Source: Candidatus Desantisbacteria bacterium CG1_02_38_46
GTDB lineage: Bacteria; Desantisbacteria; UBA1551; UBA1559
Reading direction: 5' to 3'
NCBI GenBank assembly: GCA_001871015.1
Contig: MNUO01000005.1
Span: 1 to 63,328 of the forward strand
DNA: 63,328 bases
Below are positions 23,447 to 63,328 of this stretch, piece after piece. Numbering within the stretch: position 1 is the stretch's first letter; every line of letters starts with the position of its first letter. The notes under the pieces were generated by a model that was not told where the DNA came from, ran no database searches, and saw only the letters and a program-made list of their open reading frames with translations. Position numbers and translations under genes: made by a program.

Positions 23447-23511
23447 ATATCAGGACTAAAGTCCTGAGTTACATAGTCAGATGTGTAACTCAAACCTTTA
23501 GGTTTGATATT
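23447..23511. repeat. R1 hairpin repeats, 2 copies
   Basis: Two hairpins in the leader of the zinc-finger gene: CAGGAC-TAAA-GTCCTG (23451-23466) and CAAACC-TTTA-GGTTTG (23491-23506), each flanked by gagttac or gtaactc. The stems differ but stay fully paired. Confidence 0.9.
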
Positions 23512-23523
23512 AGGGGTAAAATA

Positions 23524-24330
23524 ATGCCTGAAGACAAAGTAAAAGAATATACTGAAGAATCACTGAACAGATTGAATCTCTCAATTGATGCCAAGGTATT
23601 GCTGCAGAAGATTAACTATAAGCCTGAGGCCGTAGAGATTATAGAAGATAAATTGAGGGCTTTTTGTCCAGTTCATAAAGACAAGAACTTCAGAACTCTG
23701 ATGGTGGATTTGAAGAGTAATCATTTCAAATGTCATTATCTCCAGTGTGAGGGATATAAAGGTGGAAATTTGCTTTATCTTTATAGTATAGCACAGAAAT
23801 GCAATCTTGGTGAGTCAGCACTTTTCTGGAGCAAAACATTAAATGTTCCATTAGAGGAAATAAAAGCTCCGGAGGAAGAAAAGATTGAAGCTGTTCCTGC
23901 TCCTGCTGCGGCAAAGGCAGGGGTTGAGGAGGACCATTTTGCTAAGGGAGTTTCATTCTATACGAGGAACTTGCTCGGGGAGGCAATAAAGGAATTTGAA
24001 CTTGTCCTTCAAGAAACGCCAGTTAAGGAACTCGAAGTGCGGAATATGTTAGGGCTTTGTTTTATGAAACAGGGAAGTCACGAAAAGGCAGTTGAAGAAT
24101 TTAAGAAGGGATTGGAATGTAAGGGTAGAGAGGAAAAAGAATACAAAGGTCTTAAGTATAACCTGGGCCGTGTATATGAAGCATCCGGTAAGATGAAAGA
24201 ATCCCTGGAAATATTCAAGGCGATTTATGAACAGGACCCAAAATATCAAGATATTGAACAAAGGATGAAGAAGCTTGAAGCTGTTGAGGGTGCACCAGCA
24301 CCCCGCAAAATTAAAATCTCATACGTATAG
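23524..24330 (+). CDS. CHC2-type zinc-finger protein with TPR domain
   Basis: The 268-residue protein begins with a DnaG-like CHC2 zinc-finger domain: C48-x2-H51, then C70 and C75, followed by EGYKGGNLLYLYSIA as in the primase finger. The last pair is C-x4-C rather than the C-x2-C of DnaG. There is no primase catalytic domain; after a Pro/Ala-rich linker (about 120-138) come about three TPR-like repeats (140-255). A role in binding nucleic acid or in assembling a complex is possible. It heads a cluster with ExeA-like and PilB ATPases, so a link to pilus or secretion is likely. I know of no named family. Confidence 0.8.
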   Translation: MPEDKVKEYTEESLNRLNLSIDAKVLLQKINYKPEAVEIIEDKLRAFCPVHKDKNFRTLMVDLKSNHFKCHYLQCEGYKGGNLLYLYSIAQKCNLGESALFWSKTLNVPLEEIKAPEEEKIEAVPAPAAAKAGVEEDHFAKGVSFYTRNLLGEAIKEFELVLQETPVKELEVRNMLGLCFMKQGSHEKAVEEFKKGLECKGREEKEYKGLKYNLGRVYEASGKMKESLEIFKAIYEQDPKYQDIEQRMKKLEAVEGAPAPRKIKISYV

Positions 24331-24351
24331 GTGTCAGGTCGCCCTGACACC
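24330..24351. repeat. R3-type perfect palindrome before the ExeA-like gene
   Basis: GGTGTCAGG-TCGC-CCTGACACC makes a 9-bp perfect stem with a 4-base loop. It overlaps the last base of the zinc-finger gene's stop codon and abuts an ATG at 24352. Because no ribosome site fits that ATG, I place the start of the next gene at 24364. Confidence 0.85.
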
Positions 24352-24363
24352 ATGGAGAAGAAA

Positions 24364-25254
24364 ATGGATTATTTGGAATTTTATCACCTCAAAGAAATTC
24401 CATTTGCTAATGCTCCTGATTTGCGTTTCTATTATGACGGTTATCAGTATGGATATACTGAAGAAAGAATTATTCATGTGATTGACCAGATGGGCGGATT
24501 GGCAGTTATTATAGGTGGAATGGGAATGGGTAAAAGTATTCTTGCGCGCCATCTGCTTGAGAGCCTGACTGGTAAAGGTATCGAATATGAATGCGGACTG
24601 ATGATCATTGTCCATACTGCAATAACTGCAAGCTGGTTATTAAAAAAAATTGCTATTCAGCTTGGCGTCACAGACCCTGCAGATGAAAAAGTTAACCTTA
24701 TAACTCAACTATTTAACCGACTTATAGAAATTCAGGAAGAAGGAAGAAAAGCAGTTGTGTTAATAGATGAAGCAAATATGCTGCAAACAAGGGAAATAAT
24801 GGAAGAGTTTCGCGGTTTATTAAACCTTGAGGTTCCCGGAAAGAAATTGGTCACATTTGTATTCTTCGGCATGCCTGAACTTGATGAGTATCTTAAATTG
24901 GATGAGCCTCTTCGTCAGCGTGTGGCATTGCGCATAGCGCTCAAACAATTTTCAGAAGAAGCTACAAAAGAATATATCCTGCACAGGTTGAAGAGAGCGA
25001 ATTCAGAAAAGAGTATGTCTGTATTTCCCGAGGATGTTCTTAAATTGATTCACATCTATTCTAAAGGCACACCCAGATTGGTCAATACCATTTGTGATAA
25101 CGCATTGTTAGAAGGTTTTCTTAAAAGAGAAGAGAAGATTACTCCCCAGATAATAGAGCAAGTAAGTGGAGAGTTGATGCTAAAGGAGTTATTACCCGAA
25201 GAAATTCAAGACAGAAAACCAAAGAAGGAAACAAAAATATCTCCAGTAGGATGA
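24364..25254 (+). CDS. ExeA/GspA-like AAA ATPase
   Basis: From ATG 24364 (296 residues) the protein begins MDYLEFYHLKEIPFANAPD, the usual ExeA start, followed by a P-loop GGMGMGKS at 51-58 and Walker B VVLIDEAN at 131-138. ExeA helps insert the secretin through peptidoglycan in type II secretion, and homologues occur with type IV pilus genes. There is no C-terminal peptidoglycan-binding domain, so the protein is probably fully cytoplasmic. A GGAG five bases upstream supports this start over 24352 or GTG 24331. PilB-like genes follow after 3 bases. Confidence 0.87.
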   Translation: MDYLEFYHLKEIPFANAPDLRFYYDGYQYGYTEERIIHVIDQMGGLAVIIGGMGMGKSILARHLLESLTGKGIEYECGLMIIVHTAITASWLLKKIAIQLGVTDPADEKVNLITQLFNRLIEIQEEGRKAVVLIDEANMLQTREIMEEFRGLLNLEVPGKKLVTFVFFGMPELDEYLKLDEPLRQRVALRIALKQFSEEATKEYILHRLKRANSEKSMSVFPEDVLKLIHIYSKGTPRLVNTICDNALLEGFLKREEKITPQIIEQVSGELMLKELLPEEIQDRKPKKETKISPVG

Positions 25255-25257
25255 CCT

Positions 25258-26967
25258 ATGATTAAGAAGAGATTTGGTGAAATTCTAACAGAAAAGAAAA
25301 TTATTACTGATGACCAGTTGAAAACCGCCCTGGATATTCAGAAGAAAGAGGGCGGAACCCTCGGGCAAACTCTTGTCAGGCTTGGTTATGTTCCTGAAGA
25401 TGTAATGAGCCGGGAACTAAGTGAATTCTATGGTATTCCCTACCTGAAACTGAGCGATTATGAAATTGACTCTACTGCTCTTTCAGTGATTCCTGAGGAA
25501 GTTGTGCGCAAATACAGCGTTCTTCCACTTGATAAAATTGGTAAAACTCTCACTGTGGCAATTTCAGACTTCAATAATGTTATAGTGTTAGATGAATTGC
25601 GTGCAGTTACGGGTTGCCAGGTAATTCCTCTTGCAGCAAGCTCGCAAGAAATTACTGCAGCTATAGATAAATATTACAAGAAAGATTCGCTTGAAGACGC
25701 TATAAAAGATATGAACGAAGAAGAGCAAAAATTGGAGGTTACAACCAGTGAAGAAGAGAAATTCAAGACTACAGAGCTTCAGGCACAAGCAGAAGATGCG
25801 CCGGCAGTGAAATTAGTAAGCTTCATCATTATGCAGGCAATTGATGACCGTGCAAGTGATATACATATCGAACCATATGAAGATGAGCTGCGTATTCGCT
25901 TAAGAATTGACGGTGTGCTCTATGAAATTAATCCACAACCTCCCAAGAAGATGCATAAAGCAATTGTTTCGCGTATAAAAATCTTAGCAAACCTTGACAT
26001 TGCTGAACAAAGGCTTGCTCAGGATGGACGTCTTAGAGTTAAGGCAAGGGATAAAATCATGGATTTACGTATATCAACACTTCCAACAATTTTTGGAGAA
26101 AAAGTAGTTATGAGGATACTGGATAAGACAATTCTTGGTTATGATTTTAAACAACTCGGCGTGGAACCCGAGGATGTTGGTAGATTTGAAGAAGCAATGG
26201 ATGTTCCATATGGAATGATACTTGTAACCGGCCCAACGAGTTGTGGTAAAACTACAACTCTTTACACGATATTAAATCAACTCAATTCTTCCCGCGATAA
26301 CCTGATTACTGTTGAGGACCCTGTGGAATATCAAATAAGGGGAATAAACCAGATGCAGGTCAGACCTGACATCGGGCTTACATGGGAAATAGGATTGCGT
26401 GCAATATTGCGTCAGGACCCTGATACCATAATGATAGGAGAGATCAGAGACCTGGAGTCCGTAGAAATGGCTATTAAATCTGCTTTAACAGGACATCTGG
26501 TTCTGTCCACTATTCATACAAATAGTGCTTGTGCTACAATTAGCCGCCTCATAAATATGGGTGCAGAACCATTTCTTATCACAGCTTCTCTGGTGTTAGT
26601 AGTTTCGCAGAGATTAATCCGCAATGTTTGTCCACAGTGCAAGGAGGCTTTCAAGCCCCTCAAGGAATTCTTAGACAGGGCAAACATAACAGGCGCTGAG
26701 GCAAAAAATATAATGTTCTATCGTGGAACAGGATGTGATTATTGTAGAAATTCTGGATATCGTGGTCGGGCAGCAATTTTTGAAGTCCTTACGCTTAACA
26801 GGCATTTAAAAGAGTTAATTCTTGAGGGTGCTACTCCTCCTGTTCTTGAAGAAGCAGCTAAAAAGGAACTCGGTTTCCGCACAATGGGTGAAATTGCTAT
26901 ATCCAAAGCCAGGAAGGGCATAACTACTCTCGAAGAGGCATTGAGCTTGACTATTGCGGAGGAATGA
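25258..26967 (+). CDS. PilB/GspE-family pilus assembly or secretion ATPase (copy 1)
   Basis: The 569-residue protein has an N-terminal GspE domain (about 1-150), a central linker, and the ATPase: P-loop GPTSCGKT near 324, Walker B-like DTIMIGEIRD near 390, and two Cys pairs (CPQC near 458, CDYC near 492) that hold zinc. It powers pilin polymerisation or type II secretion at the inner membrane. The P-loop has SC where most relatives have GS. It is followed by a close paralogue overlapping by four bases. Confidence 0.94.
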   Translation: MIKKRFGEILTEKKIITDDQLKTALDIQKKEGGTLGQTLVRLGYVPEDVMSRELSEFYGIPYLKLSDYEIDSTALSVIPEEVVRKYSVLPLDKIGKTLTVAISDFNNVIVLDELRAVTGCQVIPLAASSQEITAAIDKYYKKDSLEDAIKDMNEEEQKLEVTTSEEEKFKTTELQAQAEDAPAVKLVSFIIMQAIDDRASDIHIEPYEDELRIRLRIDGVLYEINPQPPKKMHKAIVSRIKILANLDIAEQRLAQDGRLRVKARDKIMDLRISTLPTIFGEKVVMRILDKTILGYDFKQLGVEPEDVGRFEEAMDVPYGMILVTGPTSCGKTTTLYTILNQLNSSRDNLITVEDPVEYQIRGINQMQVRPDIGLTWEIGLRAILRQDPDTIMIGEIRDLESVEMAIKSALTGHLVLSTIHTNSACATISRLINMGAEPFLITASLVLVVSQRLIRNVCPQCKEAFKPLKEFLDRANITGAEAKNIMFYRGTGCDYCRNSGYRGRAAIFEVLTLNRHLKELILEGATPPVLEEAAKKELGFRTMGEIAISKARKGITTLEEALSLTIAEE

Positions 26968-28685
26968 TGCCAGTCAAAAAAAAGTTTGGTGAGTTTTTAA
27001 CTGAATCTAAAGTAATTACTGATGGGCAACTAAAAAGCGGACTTCAGAATCAGAAAAAAGAGGGAGGAACCCTGGGACAGGCACTAATAAGATTAGGTTT
27101 TGTTTCCGAAGAAGACATGAACAAGTACCTGAGCGATTACTATGGTGTTTCCTATGTTGACATTAAGCAATATGAAATAGACCCACAAGTTCTGGCTCTA
27201 ATTCCAGAACAGATTGTACGTAAGTACAAGGTTATTCCACTGGACAAGATGAACAACAACCTTACCATTGTTACCGCAGATTTGACCAATGTATTTATAT
27301 TTGATGAGCTCAGAGTAATAACCGGTTGCGATATTACTTCTCTTCTTACCAGTGAGTCTGAAATTAATTCTGCAATTGAAAGATATTATGGAAAGAAGGT
27401 TGGTTTTGAAGAGATGATAAAGGAGATAAGCAAGGAAGGAGAAGACATTGAGATTCACAAGGAAGAAGAAAAGGGTGTAGATGCTTCTCAGTTACAAGTT
27501 GCTGTGGAAGGTGCCCCTGTGGTTAAATTAGTAAACTTCATCATTATGCAGGCAATTGATGACCGTGCAAGCGATATACATCTTGAGCCCTATGAGAAAG
27601 ATTTCCGCCTTCGTTATAGAATTGATGGAGTGCTTTATGAAATAAACCCTCCTCCTCCAAAGGCACTGCAGAATCCTATTATTGCCCGCATTAAGGTGCT
27701 TTCGAATCTCGACATTGCTGAAACAAGACTTCCCCAGGATGGGCGTATAAGGGTAAAGACCAAGACTAAAATTGTTGACCTGCGCGTATCAACATTCCCT
27801 ACAATATTCGGCGAAAAAGTAGTTATGAGGTTGTTAGATAAATCAAACCTTGCGCTCGATTTAAAACAGCTGGGATTTGAAAAGCAAGAATTAGACAAAT
27901 TCGATAACGTAATATCACAACCTTATGGAATGATTCTTATAACCGGACCTACAGGCAGTGGTAAGAGCACTACACTCTACTCAGTTTTAACAAAACTTAA
28001 TACAACAAGGGATAACATTGTGACAGTTGAGGACCCTGTGGAATATCAGGTAAGAGGTATAAACCAGGTTCAGGCCCATGCTGAAATCGGACTTACATTT
28101 GCTATGGGCTTGCGCGCAATTTTAAGACAGGACCCAAATGTAGTGATGGTGGGAGAAATTCGGGATCAGGAAACAGCAGAAATTGCAATTAAAGCAGCTC
28201 TTACAGGACATCTGGTACTTTCAACTCTTCACACCAACGATTCCTGCGGAGCAATTACCCGTCTAATTGACATTGGAATTGAACCTTTTCTTGTTTCAAG
28301 TGCGCTTACTTTAATTGCTGCACAGAGGTTGTTGCGTCGTATATGTCAGCAATGCAAGGAATCATATGCTCCTTCTGCAAAGACACTGGAAGATATGGGT
28401 ATAACTCCAAAATTAGGTGAACAAATTGTCTTCTACAGGGGAACAGGATGTGAATTATGCAAGAATACAGGATTCCGCGGAAGAACTGCAATTTACGAAA
28501 TTCTTACGCTTAACAAACATTTAAAAGAACTCATTGTAAAAAGAGCCAACACAATGGTGCTTCTAGAGGTTGCAAAAAAAGAAACTGGATTACGTACGCT
28601 CAGGGAATCCGCCATAATAAAAGTCAGGGATGGAATTACCACTGTTGAGGAAGCAATTGGCGTTACTATGGAAGGCGGTCTTTAA
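26964..28685 (+). CDS. PilB/GspE-family pilus assembly or secretion ATPase (copy 2)
   Basis: The 573-residue protein is a full-length paralogue of the gene before it, with the standard P-loop GPTGSGKS near 328, Walker B (NVVMVGEIRD near 392), the DDRASDIHLEPYE Asp-box region, and the zinc Cys pairs CQQC and CELC. Side-by-side reading shows long shared runs, so the pair arose by tandem duplication. Two similar motor ATPases may drive two machines or form a mixed hexamer. The ATGA overlap couples their translation. Confidence 0.94.
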   Translation: MMPVKKKFGEFLTESKVITDGQLKSGLQNQKKEGGTLGQALIRLGFVSEEDMNKYLSDYYGVSYVDIKQYEIDPQVLALIPEQIVRKYKVIPLDKMNNNLTIVTADLTNVFIFDELRVITGCDITSLLTSESEINSAIERYYGKKVGFEEMIKEISKEGEDIEIHKEEEKGVDASQLQVAVEGAPVVKLVNFIIMQAIDDRASDIHLEPYEKDFRLRYRIDGVLYEINPPPPKALQNPIIARIKVLSNLDIAETRLPQDGRIRVKTKTKIVDLRVSTFPTIFGEKVVMRLLDKSNLALDLKQLGFEKQELDKFDNVISQPYGMILITGPTGSGKSTTLYSVLTKLNTTRDNIVTVEDPVEYQVRGINQVQAHAEIGLTFAMGLRAILRQDPNVVMVGEIRDQETAEIAIKAALTGHLVLSTLHTNDSCGAITRLIDIGIEPFLVSSALTLIAAQRLLRRICQQCKESYAPSAKTLEDMGITPKLGEQIVFYRGTGCELCKNTGFRGRTAIYEILTLNKHLKELIVKRANTMVLLEVAKKETGLRTLRESAIIKVRDGITTVEEAIGVTMEGGL

Positions 28686-28707
28686 ATACGGATGATTAGA
28701 TGATTGG

Positions 28708-30681: not shown

Positions 30682-30711
30682 TTATATAGAGCGTCATAAA
30701 TAATTACGTAT

Positions 30712-30759
30712 TGTAGTGGTCGAGCTTGCTCGACTTGTAGTGGTCGAGCTTGCTCGACT
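30712..30759. repeat. R2 hairpin repeats, 2 tandem 24-bp units
   Basis: Two exact units of tgtagtggtcgagcttgctcgact stand head to tail. Each folds as GTCGAG-CTTG-CTCGAC. They lie in the 153-base gap between the lptD-like and rmlA-like genes. Confidence 0.92.
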
Positions 30760-30763
30760 TCTG

Positions 30764-30779
30764 GCAGAGTAAACTCTGC
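30764..30779. repeat. Single hairpin GCAGAG-TAAA-CTCTGC
   Basis: The 6-bp stem with TAAA loop has the same geometry as R1 but unrelated stem bases, and it stands directly after the R2 pair. Confidence 0.75.
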
Positions 30780-30793
30780 ACTTCCCGCATATA

Positions 30794-30821
30794 GGTGTCA
30801 GGTCTTGACAAATGACAAATA
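30794..30821. repeat. R3 repeat, left half only
   Basis: The sequence starts ggtgtcaggtcttgacaaat and continues gacaaata, matching the left 28 bases of the composite element at 36915. The right arm is missing; the rmlA ribosome site (ttggagg) follows. Confidence 0.8.
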
Positions 30822-30834
30822 TTTTGGAGGTTAG

Positions 30835-31896
30835 ATGAAAGCATTGATTTTAAGTGGGGGGAAAGGTTCTAGATTGCGTCCCATTACTCATACATCAGCA
30901 AAACAGTTAATCCCGATTGCAAATAAACCAATTTTATTCTATGGGTTAGAAGCAATAAGAGATGCAGGAATTGTGGATGTTGGAGTTATTGTCGGGGAAA
31001 CAGGGAATGAAATAAAGGAAGCACTCGGGAATGGTTCGGCATGGGGGCTTAAATTAACTTATATTGAACAAGAATCACCGCTGGGTCTTGCACATGCAGT
31101 GAAGATTGCGCGGGGTTATTTAAAAAAGGAACCATTCGTTATGTTTCTCGGTGACAATCTTATAAAAGATGGTATTGTTCCTTTTGTTGAGGAATTCAAG
31201 AAAAATAAGCCCAATGCCCTTGTTTTACTGGCAAGGGTTAAAAATCCACAGGATTTTGGTGTAGCACAATTAAAGGGAGGAAAGGTAATAAACTTAGAGG
31301 AAAAACCTAAGAAACCAAAGACCAATCTTGCGCTGGTAGGTGTCTACCTTTTTGACCATACTATTTTTGAGGCAATCAGACATATAAAACCTTCCTGGCG
31401 CAATGAACTGGAAATTACCGACGCAATTTCATATTTAATTCATCATGGCTATGAAGTTCACTCGCACATTATTAATGGCTGGTGGAAGGACACCGGAAAA
31501 CTTGAAGATTTACTTGAGGCAAACCGTATAATGCTCGATACCCTGCAATCCCAGGTCAAAGGCAGGGTTAGCAAAGATTCCCGTCTGTATGGAAAGGTGA
31601 TAATTGAAAAGAAAGCTTCAATAGTCCATAGTGTAATTCGGGGTCCAGCAACAATTGGCGAAAATACCCGCATCATTAGTTCATATATCGGACCTTTTAC
31701 TTCTGTGTATCACGATGCAGTTATTGAGAACAGCGAGATTGAACACAGTATTATCCTTGAAGAAAGCAAAATAGAAAATATTGGAAGAATTGAGGATAGC
31801 TTGATTGGAAAAAGTGTGGTAGTTTGCAGACATCCTCGTAAACCCCAGGCTTACCGTTTTATGCTTGGTGATAGTAGTCAAGTAGGTATTATTTAA
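30835..31896 (+). CDS. Glucose-1-phosphate thymidylyltransferase, long form
   Basis: The enzyme joins a nucleoside triphosphate and glucose-1-phosphate to make dTDP-glucose for deoxysugar synthesis. The 353-residue protein has the pyrophosphorylase signature LSGGKGSRLRPITHTSAKQL and EKPKKPKTNLALVGVY, plus a C-terminal left-handed beta-helix (about 245-330) that is absent from the short RmlA. It is the long (RmlA2/StrD-like) type. Other dTDP-rhamnose genes are not in the window. Confidence 0.9.
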   Translation: MKALILSGGKGSRLRPITHTSAKQLIPIANKPILFYGLEAIRDAGIVDVGVIVGETGNEIKEALGNGSAWGLKLTYIEQESPLGLAHAVKIARGYLKKEPFVMFLGDNLIKDGIVPFVEEFKKNKPNALVLLARVKNPQDFGVAQLKGGKVINLEEKPKKPKTNLALVGVYLFDHTIFEAIRHIKPSWRNELEITDAISYLIHHGYEVHSHIINGWWKDTGKLEDLLEANRIMLDTLQSQVKGRVSKDSRLYGKVIIEKKASIVHSVIRGPATIGENTRIISSYIGPFTSVYHDAVIENSEIEHSIILEESKIENIGRIEDSLIGKSVVVCRHPRKPQAYRFMLGDSSQVGII

Positions 31897-31935
31897 ATTG
31901 GCGGGGAGATGGGTACCCGCCGCAAGGAGGTTAGA

Positions 31936-33237: not shown

Positions 33238-33238
33238 A

Positions 33239-33366
33239 TGTAACTCAGGACTTTAGTCCTGACATGTAACTCAGGACTTTAGTCCTGACATGTAACTCAG
33301 GACTTTAGTCCTGACATTTTGAGTTACACACTTTCTCGGTGTGTCTCTGTGCCTTCGTGGTTGAAA
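33239..33366. repeat. R1 hairpin repeats, 3 tandem units, followed by an R8 unit
   Basis: Three nearly identical 26-base units atgtaactcaggactttagt + cctgac contain CAGGAC-TTTA-GTCCTG hairpins at 33246, 33272 and 33298. After a fourth half unit (gagttac) comes tttctcggtgtgtctctgtg and ccttcgtggttg (R8), whose reverse complement AACCACGAAGGCACAGAGAC is a common type of intergenic repeat. pilT starts 12 bases later. Confidence 0.88.
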
Positions 33367-33377
33367 AGTGAGGATTT

Positions 33378-34430
33378 ATGGATATTAATGAGATTTTGAG
33401 AGAAGCAATTAAGAAGGGTGCGTCTGATATTCATATGTGTGTGGGATTGCCGCCGATGTTCCGCATAAGCGGTGAATTGATTCCATTCGGTAATGTGAAT
33501 TTGACACAGGAAGAAAACAGGAAATTGATATATAACATACTCACGACACAACAAGCAAAAAAGTTTGAGGAAGAATATGAAATAGACCTTTCCTATGGTA
33601 TTCCAGAAGGACGTTTCCGGATTAATGTATACATGGATATTGGCGGAGTATCCGCGGCATTGAGGATCATTCCGGCTGTAGTTCCTACTATGGAAGAAAT
33701 TGGTATGCCGGAGATAGCGTATAAGTTTGCAAGATTACCAAGAGGATTGGTGCTTGTTACCGGACCTACAGGCAGTGGAAAATCCACGAGTCTGGCAGCA
33801 ATAATTAATCTGATTAATATAGAGAGGAACTGCCATATTATTACTATTGAAGACCCTATTGAATTCATCTATCAGAGGAGAAAAGCGATTATCAATCAGA
33901 GGGAATTGAACTTTCATACGAAGTCTTTTTCCCTGGCATTGAAATATGCTCTTCGCCAGGACCCCGACGTGCTCCTCGTAGGTGAGATGCGAGACCTGGA
34001 AACAATTGCTGCTGCTGTGACCCTTGCAGAGACAGGCCATCTTGTTTTTTCAACGCTTCACACCATTGATGCAGCTCAGACCGTTGACCGTATAATTGAT
34101 GTTTTTCCAGCATATCAACAGCAGCAGATAAGAGCCCAATTATCGATGGCATTAGAGGGCGTGATATCTCAGCAATTACTTGGCCGAGTTGGTGGAGGAC
34201 GCGTTGCAGCAAGAGAAGTAATGATTGTAAATACAGCTATCAGCAATTTGATTCGAGAGGGAAAAACACATCAGATTTACAGCGCCATACAAACGAATGT
34301 GGGTATTGGAATGAAAACAATGGAACAATCTCTTAAGGAAATTTACGATAAGGGTTTAATATCCTATGACGAGGCTATTTCCAAATCCAGCAATCCTGAC
34401 GAGATGAGAAGGTTGATAGGAGGTGCTTAA
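33378..34430 (+). CDS. pilT: Type IV pilus retraction ATPase
   Basis: PilT pulls pilin subunits out of the pilus to drive twitching. The 350-residue protein has P-loop GPTGSGKSTS near 130, the GEMRD Walker B region near 204, and the C-terminal AISNLIREGKTHQI retraction motif near 290. Length is normal and there are no zinc Cys pairs, which separates it from the PilB proteins above. The following gene starts on the next base. Confidence 0.95.
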   Translation: MDINEILREAIKKGASDIHMCVGLPPMFRISGELIPFGNVNLTQEENRKLIYNILTTQQAKKFEEEYEIDLSYGIPEGRFRINVYMDIGGVSAALRIIPAVVPTMEEIGMPEIAYKFARLPRGLVLVTGPTGSGKSTSLAAIINLINIERNCHIITIEDPIEFIYQRRKAIINQRELNFHTKSFSLALKYALRQDPDVLLVGEMRDLETIAAAVTLAETGHLVFSTLHTIDAAQTVDRIIDVFPAYQQQQIRAQLSMALEGVISQQLLGRVGGGRVAAREVMIVNTAISNLIREGKTHQIYSAIQTNVGIGMKTMEQSLKEIYDKGLISYDEAISKSSNPDEMRRLIGGA

Positions 34431-35333: not shown

Positions 35334-35337
35334 ACAA

Positions 35338-35404: not shown

Positions 35405-35992
35405 GTGGTTAAGGTCGGTTTTATTGGATGTGGGGGAATGGCTGGAGTGCATCTGGATAAACTGAAACAGATAGAAGATGTGCAGATAGTGGGTTTATGT
35501 GATATAATAGAAGAAAAGGCAAGGGTGTACAATCAGAAATATGGTGGCAATGTATATACTGACCACAGGGTGATGCTTGATAGGGAAAAAAGTGTTCATT
35601 CTCTCGGATACAGGGGTTTGCTGACAGATATACCGGAAAATGATGTTGACGATGCTTCATCGGCTAACCTTAAGTTTAAAAGCGGAGCCGTTGGCAATTT
35701 TTCAACCACATGTATTCTAAATCCAGGAGTAGGTATGGGACTTGAAATTGCTCTTAAACACATGATGATAAAGGCAGATTCTTCTGGTTACAGTATTATC
35801 AGCGAGCAGCCCCAGGAGGTTAAGGCTACAAATGACTACCTGCTGGATATAGAAAAGTCATTCATAGAGGCAATAAAAACAGGTGACCGTTCTAAGATAA
35901 AATGTAATTATGAGGACGGAATGAAAACTCTTGAAGTAACTCTCGCAGTAAATGAATCAATAAAGACAGGGAAGACCATTCATTTAAAGTAA
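35405..35992 (+). pseudogene. Gfo/Idh/MocA oxidoreductase with an internal in-frame deletion
   Basis: The frame encodes 195 residues. The N-terminal part is a normal Rossmann fold (VKVGFIGCGGMAGVHLDKL through YTDHRVMLDREK, residue about 62), and from about residue 65 the sequence is that of the far C-terminal part of the family (ASSANLKFKSGAVGNFSTTC). The intervening residues, including the EKP motif and active-site His, are absent; intact relatives are about 330 residues. The frame is open, so the deletion is a multiple of three. The protein should not bind substrate. An unrelated intact family member is at 44187. The stop codon overlaps the first bases of an R1 cluster. Confidence 0.75.
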
Positions 35993-36112
35993 CTCAAACC
36001 TTTAGGTTTGATATCAGGACTAAAGTCCTGAGTTACGTAACTCAGACCTTTAGGTTTGATATCAGGACTAAAGTCCTGAGTTACGTAACTCAGACCTTCA
36101 GGTCTGATTTTT
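35989..36112. repeat. R1 hairpin repeats, 5 hairpins in alternating orientation
   Basis: The cluster runs from the stop of the deleted oxidoreductase gene and reads hairpin by hairpin: CAAACC-TTTA-GGTTTG, CAGGAC-TAAA-GTCCTG, CAGACC-TTTA-GGTTTG (one G-T pair), CAGGAC-TAAA-GTCCTG, CAGACC-TTCA-GGTCTG. Flanking gtaactc and gagttac mark the orientations. Confidence 0.92.
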
Positions 36113-36914: not shown

Positions 36915-36983
36915 GGTGTCAGGTCTTGACAAATGACAAATATCAGGACTAAAGTCCTGAGTTACATGTCAAGACCTGACACC
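36915..36983. repeat. Composite R3 element with nested R1 hairpin, 69 bp
   Basis: The arms ggtgtcaggtcttgaca and its reverse complement (tgtcaagacctgacacc) enclose aatgacaaat and the hairpin CAGGAC-TAAA-GTCCTG with gagttac. By direct base-by-base reading it is the exact reverse complement of the element at 43217-43285. Confidence 0.93.
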
Positions 36984-37003
36984 AGGAAAAAAGGAGGGTT
37001 AAA

Positions 37004-37150
37004 ATGGCAGAGGGAAGATGTATGAAGTGTAAGAAGCAGGTGGAGATTAAGGACGGAAAGGAATTGGTGATGAAGAACGGAATGAAAGCTATCCAGGGTG
37101 TTTGCCCGGATTGCGGAACAAAGGTTTTTAGAATTTTGGGGAAAAAATAA
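37004..37150 (+). CDS. Small zinc-ribbon protein (DUF5679-like)
   Basis: The 48-residue frame starts at ATG 37004 after AAGGAGG and ends at 37150. The Cys pattern CMKC ... CPDC (positions 6/9 and 34/37) fits a zinc ribbon; the KEL.MKNG motif is as in DUF5679. The role is unknown. It lies between the composite repeat and the frameshifted transporter. Confidence 0.75.
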   Translation: MAEGRCMKCKKQVEIKDGKELVMKNGMKAIQGVCPDCGTKVFRILGKK

Positions 37151-40642: not shown

Positions 40643-40665
40643 TGTAGTGGTCGAGCTTGCTCGAC
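40643..40665. repeat. R2 hairpin, single copy before fhs
   Basis: tgtagtggtcgagcttgctc + gac folds as GTCGAG-CTTG-CTCGAC. It lies between folB and fhs, 8 bases before the fhs ribosome site. Confidence 0.88.
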
Positions 40666-42382: not shown

Positions 42383-42578
42383 TGTAGTGGTCGAGTTTAC
42401 TCGACTTGTAGTGGTCGAGATTGTTCGACAATTGTAGTGGTCGAGTTTACTCGACTTGTAGTGGTCGAGTTTACTCGACTTGTAGTGGTCGAGCTTGTTC
42501 GACAATTGTAGTGGTCGAGTTTACTCGACTTGTAGTGGTCGAGTTTACTCGACTTGTAGTGGTCGAGTTTACTCGACT
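42383..42578. repeat. R2 array of 8 hairpin units (24 or 26 bp)
   Basis: Eight head-to-tail units begin with tgtagtggtcgag and end ctcgact (24 bp) or ttcgacaat (26 bp; units 2 and 5). Six units are the GTCGAG-TTTA-CTCGAC form; two have GTCGAG-(ATTG or CTTG)-TTCGAC with one G-T pair. The unit lengths add up to the 196 bases seen, with no spacers. A partial ninth unit, tgtagaggtg, supplies the fchA ribosome site. Confidence 0.95.
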
Positions 42579-43216: not shown

Positions 43217-43285
43217 GGTGTCAGGTCTTGACATGTAACTCAGGACTTTAGTCCTGATATTTGTCATTTGTCAAGACCTGACACC
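43217..43285. repeat. Composite R3 element with nested R1 hairpin, 69 bp (inverted copy)
   Basis: The reverse complement of 36915-36983 base for base: R3 arms around gtaactcaggactttagtc + ctgatat and aaatgacaaat. It fills the gap between fchA and folD, ending 16 bases before the folD start. Confidence 0.93.
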
Positions 43286-43301
43286 AGATTGGGAGGGTAG
43301 A

Positions 43302-51671: not shown

Positions 51672-51721
51672 TATAATAAATCAAGCCTCTACAATTTGAT
51701 GTTAGCTAAATAGTTACAAAT

Positions 51722-52413: not shown

Positions 52414-52448
52414 AATACGGGATGCCGCATTAAAAAATCGGAAATGGG

Positions 52449-52490: not shown

Positions 52491-52521
52491 TAAGGATGGG
52501 GTAAATCGAAAGGAGAAATGG

Positions 52522-54035: not shown

Positions 54036-54052
54036 GGAAGGTAACAGTCAGA

Positions 54053-55054: not shown

Positions 55055-55068
55055 AAAAATCCGCAGCG

Positions 55069-55956
55069 ATGAACTCCTTACTTCAAATTACAAAGTTGCT
55101 TTTACATAAGCAGGGGATAAGAGTAAGGAAATATTTGGGACAGAATTTTCTTATTGATGAGGAAGTGTTACACAAGATAATTGAAGCTGTAAATTTATCT
55201 CCAGATGATTTTGTCCTGGAGATTGGAGCGGGACCGGGTATTTTAACAAAGGAGATTGCTAAAAGAGTAAAAAGAGTCATTGCTATTGAGCTTGACCAGA
55301 ATTTAATCAAAACATTAAGGGAAAATTTAAAGAATTACCCCGGCGTGGAAATAATAAAAGGGGATGTGCTCAGGTTGAATCTTAAATCCCTTTTTCCAGC
55401 AAATATCCCTGTTAAGATAATCGCCAATCTTCCTTATTATATTACCACTCCAATAATTATGCATCTTTTAGAGCAGAAATTCCCACCTTTTACGAGGTTA
55501 GTTATTATGGTTCAAAAGGAAGTGGGATTAAGGATTGTTGCTTCTCCCAAATCCGCAGACTCTGGAGTACTTTCAGTTATCCTGCAATACTATTCTAAAC
55601 CGGAATTAATCTCTATTGTGCCACGGAAAGCTTTTTTTCCTTCACCGAAGGTAGATTCTGCTATTGTGAGATTGACCATACGGAAAAACCCACCTGTCCA
55701 AGTAGTAAATGAAAACTTATTTTTTAAGGTAGTTAGAGCTTCTTTCAGTCATCGTCGCAAGACTCTAACAAATTCATTATTAAAGAGCCAGTTGGGACTT
55801 GATAAAGAAAAAATTACACAGTTGTTAGCAGATGCTCATATAGAGCCTGATTTGAGAGCACAATCTTTAAGTTTACAGAATTTTGCTCACCTGGCAAATA
55901 CATTGATAAAAACCACAGGGGCACAGAGACATCGATATTGTAACTCAGGACTTTAG
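55069..55956 (+). CDS. rsmA: 16S rRNA adenine dimethyltransferase (KsgA)
   Basis: The enzyme dimethylates two adenines near the 3' end of 16S rRNA. The protein has GQNFLIDEEVL near 24, the SAM site LEIGAGPGILTKEI near 51, IELDQNL, and NLPYYITTPIIM near 120. I start at ATG 55069, closest to the family N-terminus; a TTG at 55051 overlaps pdxA. The last five residues (CNSGL) and the stop are coded by an R1 repeat, so the C-terminus was reshaped by the insertion. Confidence 0.94.
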   Translation: MNSLLQITKLLLHKQGIRVRKYLGQNFLIDEEVLHKIIEAVNLSPDDFVLEIGAGPGILTKEIAKRVKRVIAIELDQNLIKTLRENLKNYPGVEIIKGDVLRLNLKSLFPANIPVKIIANLPYYITTPIIMHLLEQKFPPFTRLVIMVQKEVGLRIVASPKSADSGVLSVILQYYSKPELISIVPRKAFFPSPKVDSAIVRLTIRKNPPVQVVNENLFFKVVRASFSHRRKTLTNSLLKSQLGLDKEKITQLLADAHIEPDLRAQSLSLQNFAHLANTLIKTTGAQRHRYCNSGL

Positions 55957-56070
55957 TTTTGATATGTAACTCAGGACTTTAGTCCTGATATCAAAACTAA
56001 AGTTTTGAGTTACAACTTTCTCTATATCAAAACTAAAGTTTTGAGTTACAACTTTCTCTATGACTCCGTG
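55916..56070. repeat. R1 cluster (4 hairpins) flanked by inverted R8 sequences
   Basis: The R1 hairpins are CAGGAC-TTTA-GTTTTG, CAGGAC-TTTA-GTCCTG and twice CAAAAC-TAAA-GTTTTG. They are bracketed by aaccacaggggcacagagac on the left and, in inverted form, tttctctatgactccgtggt on the right. The left flank and the first hairpin are inside the rsmA coding end. Confidence 0.88.
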
Positions 56071-56089
56071 GTTATGCGGGAGGTATTTC

Positions 56090-58669: not shown

Positions 58670-58671
58670 AA

Positions 58672-59640
58672 ATGGAACTGAGAGAAGATACAAGGTATAC
58701 ATATGCTGTGGCGAGAATCAGGGCATTAGAGACTCGTAGTCTTAATCTTGAAAAGATTCAAAGAATTGTTGATGCTGGCGATGCATCAACTGCCTGGCGG
58801 GAGACCGCGGGCTGGCATCTTTTACCAAAGGGTGAACTAAGCCCCGAGAATACCCAGACCGACCTGGAGAAATTTCTAATTGAGGAAATAAGATGTACAA
58901 ACAATTTATTCTCGTCTTTATCGAATGACCCTGAGTTGACCAATCTTTTTTTCTTGAAATATGATTTTCATAATTTGAAAATTTTGTTGAAAATATCTCC
59001 AGAATCTCTGGATGGAATGGTTAACCTCGGGTTAGTTCCTATCGAAAAATTAAAAGAATCGGTAATAGAGAGGAATTTCAGAGAATTACCTAAATTATTG
59101 CAGGAATCTATCAGAGAAATTCTAGAGCTAGTAAAAATTGACACCAATTTGCTTTATGGACGTCTGGATATGGTTGATATTATCCTTGATAAAAAAATGT
59201 TTGATTTAATTTTCAGAACGTTAAAAAGACATCCTGCTCCATCCTGTTCTTTCCTGAATATGCTTTTTCAAACTGAAGTTGATATCTGCAATCTAAATAT
59301 TTGCAGGCGTTTTAAACGCCTTCGCAGGAACAGAGATTTTTTGAATGAAGCTTTGTTACCGGGGGGAAAATTAGCTCTAAAATTTCTCCTGGAGAAATAC
59401 GAAAATAATGAATATGCTCCACTGAATGAATTTATAAACTTTCAAATCGCAACTTTCAAATTGCAGCTTAATAATCTCTACGAGTCCACTATTTATACTG
59501 CATTTGGATTGGAGCCGCTGGTTGCATTTTTGAAGAAAAGGGAAAAAGATGCGAAGATGATAAGAATGATAATCCTCGCCAAACTTCAGGGTTTGGCGCC
59601 AAAAGCCATATGGGGAGAAATTAATACAATCAATGAATAA
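58672..59640 (+). CDS. atpC: V/A-type ATP synthase subunit C
   Basis: Subunit C joins the rotor shaft to the membrane ring. The 322-residue protein has the family start (YTYAVARIRALETRSL), a long helical core, and a C-terminal EALLPGG signature near 230. I start at ATG 58672, two bases after the sugar-nucleotide stop; a GTG at 58654 is in frame. It is separated from A, B and D by 36 kb. A palindrome (GGCGTTT-T-AAACGCC) occurs inside it at 59306. Confidence 0.9.
   Translation: MELREDTRYTYAVARIRALETRSLNLEKIQRIVDAGDASTAWRETAGWHLLPKGELSPENTQTDLEKFLIEEIRCTNNLFSSLSNDPELTNLFFLKYDFHNLKILLKISPESLDGMVNLGLVPIEKLKESVIERNFRELPKLLQESIREILELVKIDTNLLYGRLDMVDIILDKKMFDLIFRTLKRHPAPSCSFLNMLFQTEVDICNLNICRRFKRLRRNRDFLNEALLPGGKLALKFLLEKYENNEYAPLNEFINFQIATFKLQLNNLYESTIYTAFGLEPLVAFLKKREKDAKMIRMIILAKLQGLAPKAIWGEINTINE
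59306..59320. repeat. Palindrome GGCGTTT-T-AAACGCC inside atpC
   Basis: A 15-base perfect inverted repeat within the conserved region of subunit C; it does not add length relative to the family pattern, so it is probably a chance or repeat-derived feature. Confidence 0.45.
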
Positions 59641-59938
59641 GGTTGCAGTTATAGGTGTAGAATCTTCGGTATTGGTATTTAAATTCCTGAATGTTGATGT
59701 ATTTCCAGTTAAAGATGCGAGAGGGTGCGTGGAAGTGTTAAGAAAAATTATTGGGAAATATTCAATCATCTTCATAGATGAACTTTTTATTGATGAGGCA
59801 AGTTCTCTTATAAGTGAATCTGACAGGGATATTGCTATGACGATAATCCCATTACCTTTGCAGGGAAGGTCCTCAGGGAACGCAGTAAAAAGAATCAAAG
59901 ATTTTATTAGAAAAGCAATGGGTATTTCTGTATCCTGA
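59633..59938 (+). CDS. atpF: V/A-type ATP synthase subunit F
   Basis: Subunit F is a small rotor-shaft protein. The 101-residue protein has the strand-helix order of the family (VAVIGVESSVLVFKFLNVDV, YSIIFIDELFI, MTIIPLPLQGRSSG). It overlaps subunit C by 8 bases. The stop lies beside a short ATCCC-GAA-GGGAT palindrome (59938-59950). Confidence 0.88.
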   Translation: MNKVAVIGVESSVLVFKFLNVDVFPVKDARGCVEVLRKIIGKYSIIFIDELFIDEASSLISESDRDIAMTIIPLPLQGRSSGNAVKRIKDFIRKAMGISVS

Positions 59939-59950
59939 TCCCGAAGGGAT
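59938..59950. repeat. Short palindrome ATCCC-GAA-GGGAT
   Basis: A 5-bp stem with 3-base loop directly after atpF. It has the loop GAA seen in the R6 palindrome at 40114 but a different stem; too weak to be a terminator. Confidence 0.45.
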
Positions 59951-60000
59951 GGCTTCGCTACTATTATGAACAATTTTTATATCAAATTTTCATTTTTTTC

Positions 60001-60028
60001 TTGCAATTTTTTAAAAATACATTATAAT
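60001..60028 (+). promoter_or_regulatory. Sigma-70 promoter
   Basis: TTGCAA (60001-60006) and TATAAT (60023-60028), 16 bases apart, lie upstream of the small basic protein gene. The spacing and the T/A-rich surroundings fit a strong promoter. Confidence 0.75.
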
Positions 60029-60080
60029 ATAAATTGTAGTAAAATGTTATTGTTCAGATTAAAAAAAGGGGGTGAGGAGA

Positions 60081-60215
60081 ATGGGAGAGGTTATTATGAA
60101 GAGTGCGGTAAAGAGAGAGAAGGGCTATATGTATTATGTGGACGGGAAAGGAAATCTTTGCCGCGCAAAGATGGCCCGTGGCGGAAAGAAAAAGAAAAAG
60201 AAAAAGAAAAGATAA
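60081..60215 (+). CDS. Very small lysine-rich basic protein
   Basis: The 44-residue frame starts at ATG 60081 after gggggtgagga and ends at 60215. The product is highly basic, with KREKGYMYYVDGKGNLCRA followed by KMARGGKKKKKKKKR. The tail resembles a nucleic-acid-binding tail. It has its own promoter and a strong terminator, so it is expressed as a single gene. I recall similar short proteins ending ARGG plus lysines in candidate phyla, but no function. Confidence 0.78.
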   Translation: MGEVIMKSAVKREKGYMYYVDGKGNLCRAKMARGGKKKKKKKKR

Positions 60216-60247
60216 TTGTAAGTGGCACAGGAGAAAAGGTGGTTTTG

Positions 60248-60290
60248 AATAGGGTTGGTATTTCGTAATGGGTACCAACCCTATTTTTAT
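60248..60290 (+). terminator. Rho-independent terminator
   Basis: A 13-bp perfect stem (AATAGGGTTGGTA / TACCAACCCTATT) with a 12-base loop is followed by TTTAT. It ends the transcript of the small basic protein. Confidence 0.82.
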
Positions 60291-60342
60291 AGAAACGATT
60301 AATGTGTTGTAACTCAAACCTTCTCGAAGAGTCCGATTGAAA

Positions 60343-60450
60343 TAATATCAGGGCTAAAGTCCTGAGTTACATATCAGGGCTAAAGCCCTGAGTTACATAT
60401 CAGGGCTAAAGCCCTGAGTTACATATCAGGACTAAAGTCCTGAGTTACAT
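60343..60450. repeat. R1 hairpin repeats, 4 tandem units
   Basis: Four units of atatcaggrctaaagycctg + agttac with stems CAGGGC/GTCCTG (one G-T pair), CAGGGC/GCCCTG twice and CAGGAC/GTCCTG, all TAAA loops. They fill the gap before cvpA. Confidence 0.92.
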
Positions 60451-60457
60451 AAATAAA

Positions 60458-60940
60458 ATGAACTGGTTGGATATAATTATCGTTGTGGGTTTAATCATTA
60501 ATGTCGTCATCAGTCTCAAGAGGGGACTGGTCAGGGAATTGTTCTCGGTGATGGGGATAATCCTCGGTGTTGTAATATCTAGCAGGTTTTACCAGGAACT
60601 TAACTGGTTTTCAGGACTAATAAAAAACCCTGGCATTGTGAAGGTTCTTTCTTTTATCTTGATTTTTCTTGGCGTGGCAATAATAGTAAACCTCACAGGG
60701 CTGGTATTGAATAAAATTTTTAAATGGTCGGCACTTGGAATGCTTGACCATCTGGGTGGTTTTATCTTTGGTTTCATAAAGGGAATTATGATAACTGGAA
60801 TAGTTCTTTTTTTGCTTGCAAAGTTTCCACCGATGTCTGAGATTATAAATAAATCTCCAGTTGCATCTGCAATTTTACGATTTGTGAATAATATAATAAC
60901 CTTAATCTGGAATAAACCCGAAATTACAGAATATATCTAA
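60458..60940 (+). CDS. CvpA-family membrane protein
   Basis: The 160-residue protein has about four membrane segments and the CvpA pattern (NWLDIIIVVGLIINVVISLKRGL, VREL, then LDHLGGFIFGFIKGI). The family is linked to colicin V production and envelope functions. It starts at ATG 60458, just after the R1 array. It is 6 bases before the next gene. Confidence 0.87.
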   Translation: MNWLDIIIVVGLIINVVISLKRGLVRELFSVMGIILGVVISSRFYQELNWFSGLIKNPGIVKVLSFILIFLGVAIIVNLTGLVLNKIFKWSALGMLDHLGGFIFGFIKGIMITGIVLFLLAKFPPMSEIINKSPVASAILRFVNNIITLIWNKPEITEYI

Positions 60941-60946
60941 AACAAA

Positions 60947-61612
60947 ATGAACAAAAAGAAAAATTTTTTCAAGACCGCAGAAGGGTTTGTTTTTATACTT
61001 GGAATAGTAGTTTTTATTTCAGGCTTTTTTATTCTTTATCCTGTGATTCAGGTTAACTGGAAAGGTATGCTGATGATGTTAATAACAGGCATTGCTGGTG
61101 GAAAAGGAGTTAGCATACCAGTTGGACTTGGAAAATCTTTACCGGAGTGGTTAGTATTTGTTGTTGCCGCATTGCAGGATATAGTTGCTGTTTTCTGGTT
61201 TTACCCATTCATAGTTCTTTTTAAAAATAAAGTTATTAAAGGAAAATTAATAGGCAATATAGTACAAAATGCCCAGTATACTGTAGATAAACACAAAAAT
61301 TGGCTGAAGCCATTTGGCGTGCTGGGCATTGGTTTTTTCGTGTGGATTCCACTCACCATGACAGGTCCCATCGTGGGTTCTGTATTTGGCCTCCTGCTTG
61401 GAATGAGTACGCCAGCTATTATGATTACTGTAACCGTTGCTGGTGTATTAAGCGCATTATGCTGGACTTATCTGTTTGATTTTATGTTTACCTGGGCAAG
61501 CAATGTAAATAAATATTTTCCTGCAATTGCCGTTATTGTTATCTTGGCGTTACTTTTGATTATTCGTCTTGAGGAAATATATAGAAAAAGAAAGTATGGT
61601 GAAACAGAATGA
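60947..61612 (+). CDS. Putative small multidrug export protein
   Basis: The 221-residue protein has about five membrane segments and a conserved-looking middle (KPFGVLGIGFFVWIPLTMTG, then GPIVGSVFGLLLGM), as in the PF06695 family. Substrate unknown. It overlaps the next gene by four bases (ATGA). Confidence 0.75.
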   Translation: MNKKKNFFKTAEGFVFILGIVVFISGFFILYPVIQVNWKGMLMMLITGIAGGKGVSIPVGLGKSLPEWLVFVVAALQDIVAVFWFYPFIVLFKNKVIKGKLIGNIVQNAQYTVDKHKNWLKPFGVLGIGFFVWIPLTMTGPIVGSVFGLLLGMSTPAIMITVTVAGVLSALCWTYLFDFMFTWASNVNKYFPAIAVIVILALLLIIRLEEIYRKRKYGETE

Positions 61613-62907
61613 AAAAGAAATTTATTTTTCTATTCTTTATTCTATACTCTTTTTCGGTGCATGCCGGGATAAAAAATGTTAAGTTTGACAATGGCTTAAC
61701 AGTATTGCTCAAAGAGGACCACAGGTTAAAAATTGTCTCAATTCAACTCTGGGTTAAAGTTGGCTCCAGAAATGAGGATACCACAACTTCTGGCATCTCG
61801 CATCTGATAGAGCACATGGTTTTTAAAGGTACGCAGAATTACCCCTGTGAAGTAATCCAGGACGAGGTGGAAAAAAGAGGGGGCGTGATCAATGCAGGGA
61901 CATCCCGGGACTTCACATATTTTTATGTTACACTACCCACAGGTCAGAATAACCTGTCCATTGGTCTGGATATTCTATTTCAAATGATGAGAAAAGCATT
62001 ATTTCCGGAAGATGAATTAGACAGGGAAAAATTTGTGATTGCTGAGGAAATAAACCGTAGGTGGGATAACCACCAGAGTTATCTCTGGGATTTGTTCAAT
62101 TCTGTACTTTACTCCTGTCATCCGTATTCTCAACCGGTATTAGGTACATCAGAATCAATTCGCCATATTTCAAAAGAGGACATTCTAAATTATTACAACA
62201 AGTTCTATGTGCCGGCGAATTGTACACTTGTGGTTGTAGGAGATTTTAAAGAAAGAGACATAATTATACTTACTCAGAGGATATTTGGCGGGGAAAGATT
62301 TTTCCAACCATCAAAGACCGTAGATGAAACAAAAGTAGAACCTATCGCAAGAAAGAATTTAGAAATTGAAAGACCTGTCCATCAGGCGTATTTAATATTT
62401 GGTACAGCAGGTCCTGATGCAGTAGATGACGATTGTTATTCAATGGATATTCTCTCTTATATTCTTGGAAAAGGAAGATATTCACGTCTCTACCGAAAAT
62501 TACGAGAAGAAAAAAGATTGGTGTGGAGTGTGGATTGCTCGTTTTTAACGCAAAAAGAAAAAGGGCCCTTTTACATCTCGATAGAATGTAATCCAGACAA
62601 AATTCCATTGGTCAAAGAAATTATATTTCAGGAACTGAAAAGAATTTCTAATGAGTTGGTCAGCGATGATGAAATTAAAAGAGCAAAGTCAATGTTTGAG
62701 ACAGGATATTTATTAGATGTCGAGACTTATTCTGGAGAGGCATTTAATCTGGGTTATTATCAAACAATAGGTTCATACAAGATTGCACTTGAATATTTAG
62801 GTAAAATCCTGAAGGTTACTTCAAGGAGTATGCAGAGAGTGGCAAGAAAATACTTCAATCCCCAGAATTTTATCAGTGTTATGATTATGCCACCTGGAGA
62901 AAAATAA
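61609..62907 (+). CDS. M16-family zinc peptidase (active subunit)
   Basis: The 432-residue protein has a signal peptide (MKKKFIFLFFILYSFSVHA), the HxxEH zinc motif in HLIEHMVFKGT (near 65-75), and the downstream Glu in EEINRRWDNH. M16 peptidases often work as a pair with an inactive partner, which here follows. It is likely periplasmic. The two genes are 3 bases apart. Confidence 0.9.
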   Translation: MKKKFIFLFFILYSFSVHAGIKNVKFDNGLTVLLKEDHRLKIVSIQLWVKVGSRNEDTTTSGISHLIEHMVFKGTQNYPCEVIQDEVEKRGGVINAGTSRDFTYFYVTLPTGQNNLSIGLDILFQMMRKALFPEDELDREKFVIAEEINRRWDNHQSYLWDLFNSVLYSCHPYSQPVLGTSESIRHISKEDILNYYNKFYVPANCTLVVVGDFKERDIIILTQRIFGGERFFQPSKTVDETKVEPIARKNLEIERPVHQAYLIFGTAGPDAVDDDCYSMDILSYILGKGRYSRLYRKLREEKRLVWSVDCSFLTQKEKGPFYISIECNPDKIPLVKEIIFQELKRISNELVSDDEIKRAKSMFETGYLLDVETYSGEAFNLGYYQTIGSYKIALEYLGKILKVTSRSMQRVARKYFNPQNFISVMIMPPGEK

Positions 62908-62909
62908 AT

Positions 62910-63328
62910 ATGAAGAAATTGAAAAATGTAACTCAGGGCTTTAGCCCTGATATGAGCATGCAGAATGTAACTCAGGGCTTTAGCCCTGATATCAAACCTA
63001 AAGGTTTGAATTACTCCAGTGATTTTTGTGGATTCAGTAACAGATTATTTCTTTGTATCTTCCTGTCTTTGTGGTTTTTTATATTGAATTTTGTAGTTAT
63101 AAGTCCGGTTTACGCTATGGCAGGTAGCAATTCTATCCATGAAACTATTTTAAACAATGGACTAACCATTATATATAAGCAAAACCGGGCAAGCCAGATG
63201 GTAATAATGGATATGTTCATAAAAGGTGGAATTTTTTATGAAGACGAAGATAAATCCGGGATTACAAATCTGGTTGGGAAATTATTGTTAAAGGGAACTA
63301 TTAACCGCAGCGCTGAAGAAATTTCTAG
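62910..63328 (+). CDS. M16-family peptidase, inactive-type partner (cut by window end)
   Basis: The frame from ATG 62910 is open to the window edge. The mature part starts near residue 75 (ETILNNGLTIIYKQ) and aligns with the active subunit, but at the zinc site it reads GITNLVGKLLLKGT, lacking HxxEH, as in inactive partners. The first 35 codons translate two R1 repeats (NVTQGFSPD twice, then KPKGLNY). The hydrophobic stretch RLFLCIFLSLWFFILNFVV, a likely signal peptide, comes from sequence like R8. A TTG near 63006 could be the true start. Confidence 0.8.
   Translation, partial: MKKLKNVTQGFSPDMSMQNVTQGFSPDIKPKGLNYSSDFCGFSNRLFLCIFLSLWFFILNFVVISPVYAMAGSNSIHETILNNGLTIIYKQNRASQMVIMDMFIKGGIFYEDEDKSGITNLVGKLLLKGTINRSAEEIS
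62926..63013. repeat. R1 hairpin repeats, 3 copies inside a coding start
   Basis: CAGGGC-TTTA-GCCCTG at about 62934 and again at 62975, and CAAACC-TAAA-GGTTTG near 62993. All lie within the open frame of the second M16 gene and keep it open. Confidence 0.9.

Follow-up and report, generated by a model that had tools for sequence, protein, structure and literature searches.

What is the short hairpin, here called R1, that recurs through a stretch of DNA from Candidatus Desantisbacteria bacterium CG1_02_38_46 (contig MNUO01000005.1; 63,328 nt, the whole stretch being referred to as the window), and why do its stem bases change in matched pairs around a nearly fixed loop? An earlier note on this DNA left three options for its role: a mobile unit, transcript stability, or an attenuator. 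The evidence points to R1 being a family of repetitive extragenic palindromic (REP) sequences belonging to a REP-associated tyrosine transposase (RAYT, of the HUH/Y1 type) of Ca. Desantisbacteria, and this reading, with the mechanism and the account of inverted doublets proposed below, is given a probability of about 0.9.

The R1 unit reads GTAAC + TCAnnnC + TTTA (rarely TTCA) + GnnnTGA: a GTAA tag, one nucleotide, a 7-bp stem and a TTTA/TTCA loop. A scan of the window keyed to tag, loop and tail yields 23 hairpins, grouped in 8 clusters (shuffles expect 0.07), and a base-paired scan returns the identical 23 together with one chance match at 37115, bearing out the count in the earlier note. 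Its description of the unit is refined in three respects. The 6-bp stem it reported, from CA to TG, is present inside a stem of 7 bp, since a T-A pair lies outside as well (TCAnnnC/GnnnTGA). Its TTTA and TAAA loops are one loop read on either strand, with TTCA the sole true variant. Finally, the few mismatches it described as G-T pairs are such in two of the 23 stems (36037 and 55940), but the unit at 60348 carries an A-C mismatch (GGAC/GCCC).

The family is large. A whole-genome search allowing up to two mismatches, the only source used for copy number, gives about 296 copies in the window’s own genome (G000; 1.73 Mb, 88% complete) versus 7 for the reversed pattern, and 125 in a sister genome (G001) versus 0 for the control. 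Other own-genome statistics refer to a 565-kb sample of G000, partly picked for R1-bearing contigs, and those of the sister to 312 kb of G001. Among 58 other genomes, the family occurs only in G001, the one from the window’s order; a viral contig collection contains two exact matches. The tag is GTAAC in 149 and GTAGC in 16 of 179 own-genome copies, and 151 of the 179 are intergenic, while open reading frames (ORFs) cover 91% of the sample.

Covariation was assessed on copies gathered by tag and loop alone, with pairing not demanded. All seven stem pairs are intact in 143/164 copies of the G000 sample and 69/82 of G001; the remainder are mostly chance matches, with about 6 G000 copies carrying one mismatch. 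Stem pairs 6, 5 and 4, the variable ones, rank as the top three among all column pairs by mutual information with average product correction (APC). Both results support the claim of the earlier note that stem changes are compensated and the folded form maintained, genome-wide and in G001. About ten stem types exist, nearly all fully complementary; a few account for most copies, and the dominant types differ in each of four genomes. Could this pattern be neutral, with R1 spread only by slippage or recombination and covariation inherited from a few old subfamilies without present selection on folding? The predominance of few types would fit, and direct arrays with a 26-nt period (33240 and 60348) resemble slippage products. 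The idea is nevertheless scarcely credible: one-sided stem changes are rare against fully paired copies, the many complementary types with their genome-specific dominance speak against it, and both the spread to unlinked intergenic sites and the linkage to RAYT genes (see below) are left unexplained.

A role mainly in RNA, with R1 retained in operons for the structure that it gives to transcripts (as protector of mRNA 3′ ends, attenuator or terminator), is very improbable. Most copies do lie between same-direction genes; in the window, one R1 pair (23450-23507) is placed between a consensus promoter and an ORF, both ksgA and the ORF at 35405 end in a stop codon provided by R1, and 6 of the 12 R1 hairpins of one stretch pass a loose terminator scan. 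However, an unbroken five-T run follows just one of the 12 (36090), and R1 does not have the stem-then-T-run form of an intrinsic terminator. Orientation in own-genome tandem gaps is nearly balanced (71 copies in the direction of the genes, 58 opposite), no family reached threshold in an Rfam scan of the window, and both tag and loop stay conserved next to RAYT genes of different phyla. With copies in both orientations and most of them without a proper T-run, the attenuator and transcript-stability options find no support.

Transposase genes and the GTAA tag

The sister genome links R1 to a transposase. Contig C23 of G001 (Candidatus Desantisbacteria CG1_02_49_89) carries two Y1 transposase ORFs, 163-residue frames that are 86% identical over 160 residues. 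Each begins just downstream of a same-orientation R1 and is followed by an R1 in opposite orientation; both genes are thus flanked by R1 in inverted orientation, which is how a RAYT and its REPs are typically arranged. Both score above the cut-off of 80 bits for NCBIfam REP_Tyr_transpos (NF047646; 94.7 and 99.7 bits), and the closest PDB match is 4er8, E. coli TnpArep. The HUH motif (HLH at 71-73) and the single catalytic tyrosine (Tyr130, within YIFNNP) are present. A motif comparison was made with the traits of group 3 / subclass 2.5 (DH[LF]H, WQ, D at E100, YI[VI]ANP, ~150 aa, short REP, foot plus stem of 10-13 nt): DHLH, D at E100, the length of 160 aa and the 12-nt foot plus stem fit, while WH and YIFNNP do not.

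Relatives of this RAYT are widespread. A scan of named genomes covers 80 loci, the query’s own and 79 others at 34-51% identity, from Nitrospinota, Myxococcota, Planctomycetota, Chloroflexota, Acidobacteriota and others. GTA-tagged hairpins lie within 400 bp of the RAYT gene at 51/80 loci, and their density falls 33-fold, from 3.27 per kb within this distance to 0.10 per kb beyond 1.5 kb. The loop is TTTA or TTCA in 192 of 202 cases, though the search admitted any TTnA. Since R1 flanks RAYT genes in G001, and related RAYTs of other phyla have equivalent hairpins, the mobile unit is strongly favoured among the options of the earlier note. Well-defined REP/RAYT systems are thereby extended into many uncultured phyla.

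The tag differs from the usual one. Nearly all RAYT loci have GTAG; GTAA is found only with the RAYTs of Desantisbacteria, of one Nitrospinae and of one deltaproteobacterium, and the genomes of the latter two contain 42 and 125 GTARCTCA units versus 0. With GTAA in most copies instead of a GTAG (or GTGG) foot, R1 is a variant and not an ordinary GTAG REP. On the tree, the GTAA RAYTs are compatible with a single origin, weakly supported (74/69). In E. coli TnpArep, residues W94, Q95, E100, H101 and R104 belong to the segment that reads GTAG (PMC6006769); here the R1-RAYTs align as W-H-x4-D-H-x2-R. His occupies the Gln95 position in every GTAA RAYT and in two of the GTAG RAYTs, while nearly all others have Gln (Fisher p about 0.0007, an approximate count that ignores kinship). 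A matched change of reader and tag, Gln95 to His with GTAG to GTAA, is suggested by this alignment as a lead, not a proof; such a tag switch with a candidate residue partner is useful for understanding how single-strand transposases read DNA.

The proposed mechanism is as follows. The R1 unit would fold when DNA is single-stranded; the RAYT would read the tag and the TTnA loop, ignore the middle of the stem, and cut beside the hairpin. It would then copy or move R1 units, singly or as inverted doublets, chiefly into intergenic gaps. Because the middle of the stem would not be read, it would be free to change provided that pairing is kept. Two comparisons with G001 bear on mobility: the window’s array at 33240..33314 has no counterpart at the syntenic junction that precedes the PilT-like gene (whose protein is 80% identical, and that of its neighbour 59%), and the cluster at 55940..56049 is likewise missing from the syntenic junction after ksgA. 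Both absences fit insertion, but they could reflect loss.

Stem choice in inverted neighbours

A further rule, missed by the earlier note, concerns neighbouring copies, defined as lying within 80 nt of each other in the GTAA genomes and within 40 nt at the other RAYT loci. No inverted neighbours have the same stem in G000 (0/50; about 16 expected from shuffled labels), in G001 (0/18) or in the two other GTAA genomes (0/11 and 0/36), giving 0/115 for the four together; at the other RAYT loci the figure is 1/73. Direct neighbours have identical stems in 32/48 cases in G000 and in 19/35 at the other RAYT loci (inverted versus direct: Fisher p 3e-14 and 1e-10, with same-master doublets not independent). 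Distance matters too: inverted R1 pairs more than 600 nt apart in G000 share their stem in 34/73 cases.

Why should close inverted partners differ? Most likely, identical partners would zip together into one hairpin of ~23 bp, hiding both small ones. Predicted DNA folds agree with this: of the 25 distinct doublets observed, 18 retain both hairpins, frequently in a three-way junction, whereas the same 25 doublets given identical stems keep both in 0/25 and form the long hairpin (DNA energies). In the fold model, stem variation in matched pairs thus keeps each hairpin and stops the partners from zipping together, and avoidance of one long hairpin is a likely reason for the covariation. The doublets accordingly differ from REPINs, in which a doublet folds into one long hairpin: tags-out doublets exist, but their partners differ in stem. 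A preference of REPs for heterodimers was noted earlier and called unexplained (PMC3733652). The dependence on orientation and distance narrows this preference, unexplained in 2013, to long-hairpin avoidance and leaves two testable alternatives: a transposase that requires the small hairpins to be free individually, or a purging of long palindromes.

Under the second alternative, R1 is likewise copied by a RAYT, and the rule arises from the instability of long perfect inverted repeats (through SbcCD-like nucleases or replication loss), only unlike partners surviving. This is a serious possibility, though on balance a doubtful one. It was proposed for REP heterodimers by Di Nocera et al. (PMC3733652), and it accounts for the rule being equal for tags-out and tags-in pairs, whereas a need of the transposase should act mainly on tags-out pairs; moreover, the 565-kb sample contains only 6 perfect inverted repeats (arms of at least 14 bp, spacer up to 10), the longest arms being 20 bp. 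On the other hand, tags-in pairs within doublet arrays must differ whenever the doublets themselves do, pairs with 20-37 nt spacers, where instability should weaken, differ too (all but one, at other RAYT loci), and homodimers are retained in some species (P. putida, PMC3733652). Might assembly have dropped identical-stem doublets? Wholesale loss is unlikely because the same assembly holds 43-48 bp perfect inverted repeats with short spacers.

Several observations weigh against a RAYT-copied family with free small hairpins. No excision or insertion event of R1 was seen, presence and absence being compared between different families of one order. No R1-RAYT is found in the G000 assembly, which is 88% complete (best match 28% identity), though R1 copies there exceed those of the sister; an unassembled copy is possible, as several G000 contigs (e.g. 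C4, C19, C38) begin or end in R1 arrays, and so is loss of the gene. Three Y1 transposase matches of G000 were considered as partner and rejected, none having R1 within about 1.5 kb. Direct neighbours in G001 share a stem in just 1/9 cases, mostly from one alternating array. Many doublets are copied from few masters, so the counts are not independent; distinct tags-out doublet sequences number 16 and 9, and stem combinations 6 and 5, in the two Desantisbacteria genomes. In the fold model, 7/25 doublets still favour a long imperfect hairpin, and the proposal for R1 runs contrary to the reading of P. fluorescens SBW25 REPINs as a single long hairpin (PMC3116915).

Beyond Desantisbacteria, a wider interpretation is tentative, its chances falling just short of even: a widespread lineage of RAYTs with TTnA-loop REPs, whose mobile unit would be a doublet of non-matching stems and whose substrate would be the separate small hairpins and not a long REPIN hairpin, together with a shift from GTAG to GTAA accompanied by Gln95 to His in Desantisbacteria and two other lineages.

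R1 clusters and other repeats of the window

The eight clusters differ in layout. At 23450..23507, two units have facing tags (23450-23472, minus strand, stem TCAGGAC; 23485-23507, plus strand, TCAAACC). Directly upstream of this pair and of the ORF at 23524 lies a perfect TTGACA-17-TATAAT match (23412-23440), and judging from this arrangement the pair would sit in the mRNA leader of that ORF. Direct tandem arrays with a 26-nt period occur at 33240..33314 (three units, plus strand, all TCAGGAC) and at 60348..60448 (four units, minus strand, TCAGGAC/TCAGGGC). Five units of alternating orientation occupy 35989..36107, with tags-out doublets 35989+36014 and 36037+36062 and inverted neighbours that all differ in stem. 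The ORF at 35405-35992 (195 aa), which matches only the first part of GFO/IDH/MocA oxidoreductases and takes its stop codon from an R1 tag, is possibly a decayed gene. Four units lie at 55940..56049 (55940 and 55966 on the plus strand, 55991 and 56027 on the minus strand), including a tags-out doublet 55966/55991 (TCAGGAC x TCAAAAC), and it is this cluster that gives ksgA its stop codon. Three units at 62928..63014 include the tags-out doublet 62967/62992 (TCAGGGC x TCAAACC).

The remaining two clusters, listed by the earlier note at 36915 and 43217, do contain R1, but each is a single unit nested in another repeat, GGTGTCAGGTCTTGACA: 36943..36965 (minus strand) within 36915-36984, and 43235..43257 (plus strand) within 43217-43286. 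The longer inverted repeat GGTGTCAGGTCTTGACAAATGACAAAT is found at 30794, 36915-36984 and 43217-43286 and at many other own-genome loci, often with R1 in its middle. This GGTGTCAGGTCTTGACAAATGACAAAT/R1 composite recurs genome-wide, perhaps through copying by another RAYT, of a kind that has terminal inverted repeats. Clean empty sites were sought inside the GGTGTCAGGTCTTGACA repeat, but copying seems to involve the composite as a whole, which yields no independent insertion events. Degenerate CACAGAGGCACAGAGAC / GTCTCTGTGCCTCTGTGGTT repeats adjoin R1 clusters at 33325-33366, 55912-55935 and 56050-56075, giving the impression that R1 inserted into a different family of repeats.

A second hairpin family, TGTAGTG + GTCGAG-TTTA-CTCGAC and variants, carries the classic GTAG tag and occurs at 30712-30758, 40643-40665 and 42383-42577 (11 matches in the window versus 0.02 expected); it probably represents another REP family, served by a RAYT of its own. 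Elsewhere in G000, two Y1 genes are bordered by other repeats. One (L002:1402-2442, contig C109), among the three rejected as partner of R1, joins a RAYT-like Y1 transposase to a DnaA C-terminal helix-turn-helix domain; it is of TIRYT type and is flanked by GGTCAGACCTCAAC-type terminal inverted repeats and not by R1. The other (L001:1461-2127, contig C60) is a Y1/RAYT-like gene with an in-frame TAA, located between a recombinase gene and another coding gene, with AAAAAGGGGACG / CGTCCCCTTTTTT inverted repeats on its flanks. Among the window’s genes, the adjacent ORFs at 25258-28685 contain stretches of 72-73% identical DNA 1715 nt apart; they share an ATP-binding-like segment that is similar also to the PilT-like gene at 33744.

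Relation to known REP systems

The REPtron Mb of Marinomonas sp. MWYL1 resembles R1: both are short perfect palindromes with a tag 1-2 nt from the stem and a TTTA loop (PMC8266576). For its group 3 transposase TnpA-Mb, the loop requires T12, T13 and A15 but accepts any base 14, and stem positions 2 and 3 tolerate substitution, although mismatches harm cleavage (PMC8266576); R1 and its relatives show the same pattern of constant and variable positions in loop and stem. The R1-RAYT also shares with this group the DHLH motif and D in place of E100 (PMC6006769). In contrast, the REPtron Mb tag is GTAG and its stem 5 bp, against GTAA and 7 bp in R1, the R1-RAYT has His where TnpAREP has Gln95, and the R1 host belongs to a candidate phylum far from the gamma-proteobacteria.

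The GTAG REP families described by Di Nocera et al. (2013, PMC3733652) have in common with R1 tagged hairpins, subfamilies arising by complementary changes, dimers and clusters, and RAYT linkage. Their tags, GTAG or CGTC, are described as degenerate in bases two and three, whereas R1 has GTAA. They show a heterodimer preference, while the R1 rule is strict, limited to inverted copies at short distance, and recurs at RAYTs of many phyla. New here are the GTAA tag with His for Gln95 and this strict different-stem rule for close inverted neighbours.

The SBW25 REPINs (PMC3116915) and R1 both form inverted REP doublets, are RAYT-linked and lie mostly between genes. Unlike those REPINs, R1 doublets have stems that oppose a long hairpin, and numerous R1 copies stand alone or belong to direct arrays. 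The bacterial interspersed mosaic elements (BIMEs) of E. coli, in which Y pairs with Z1 or Z2 REPs, are likewise inverted pairs of unlike REP types (PMC8266576); unlike R1, they consist of long bulged REPs with a GTAG tag and a group 2 TnpAREP.

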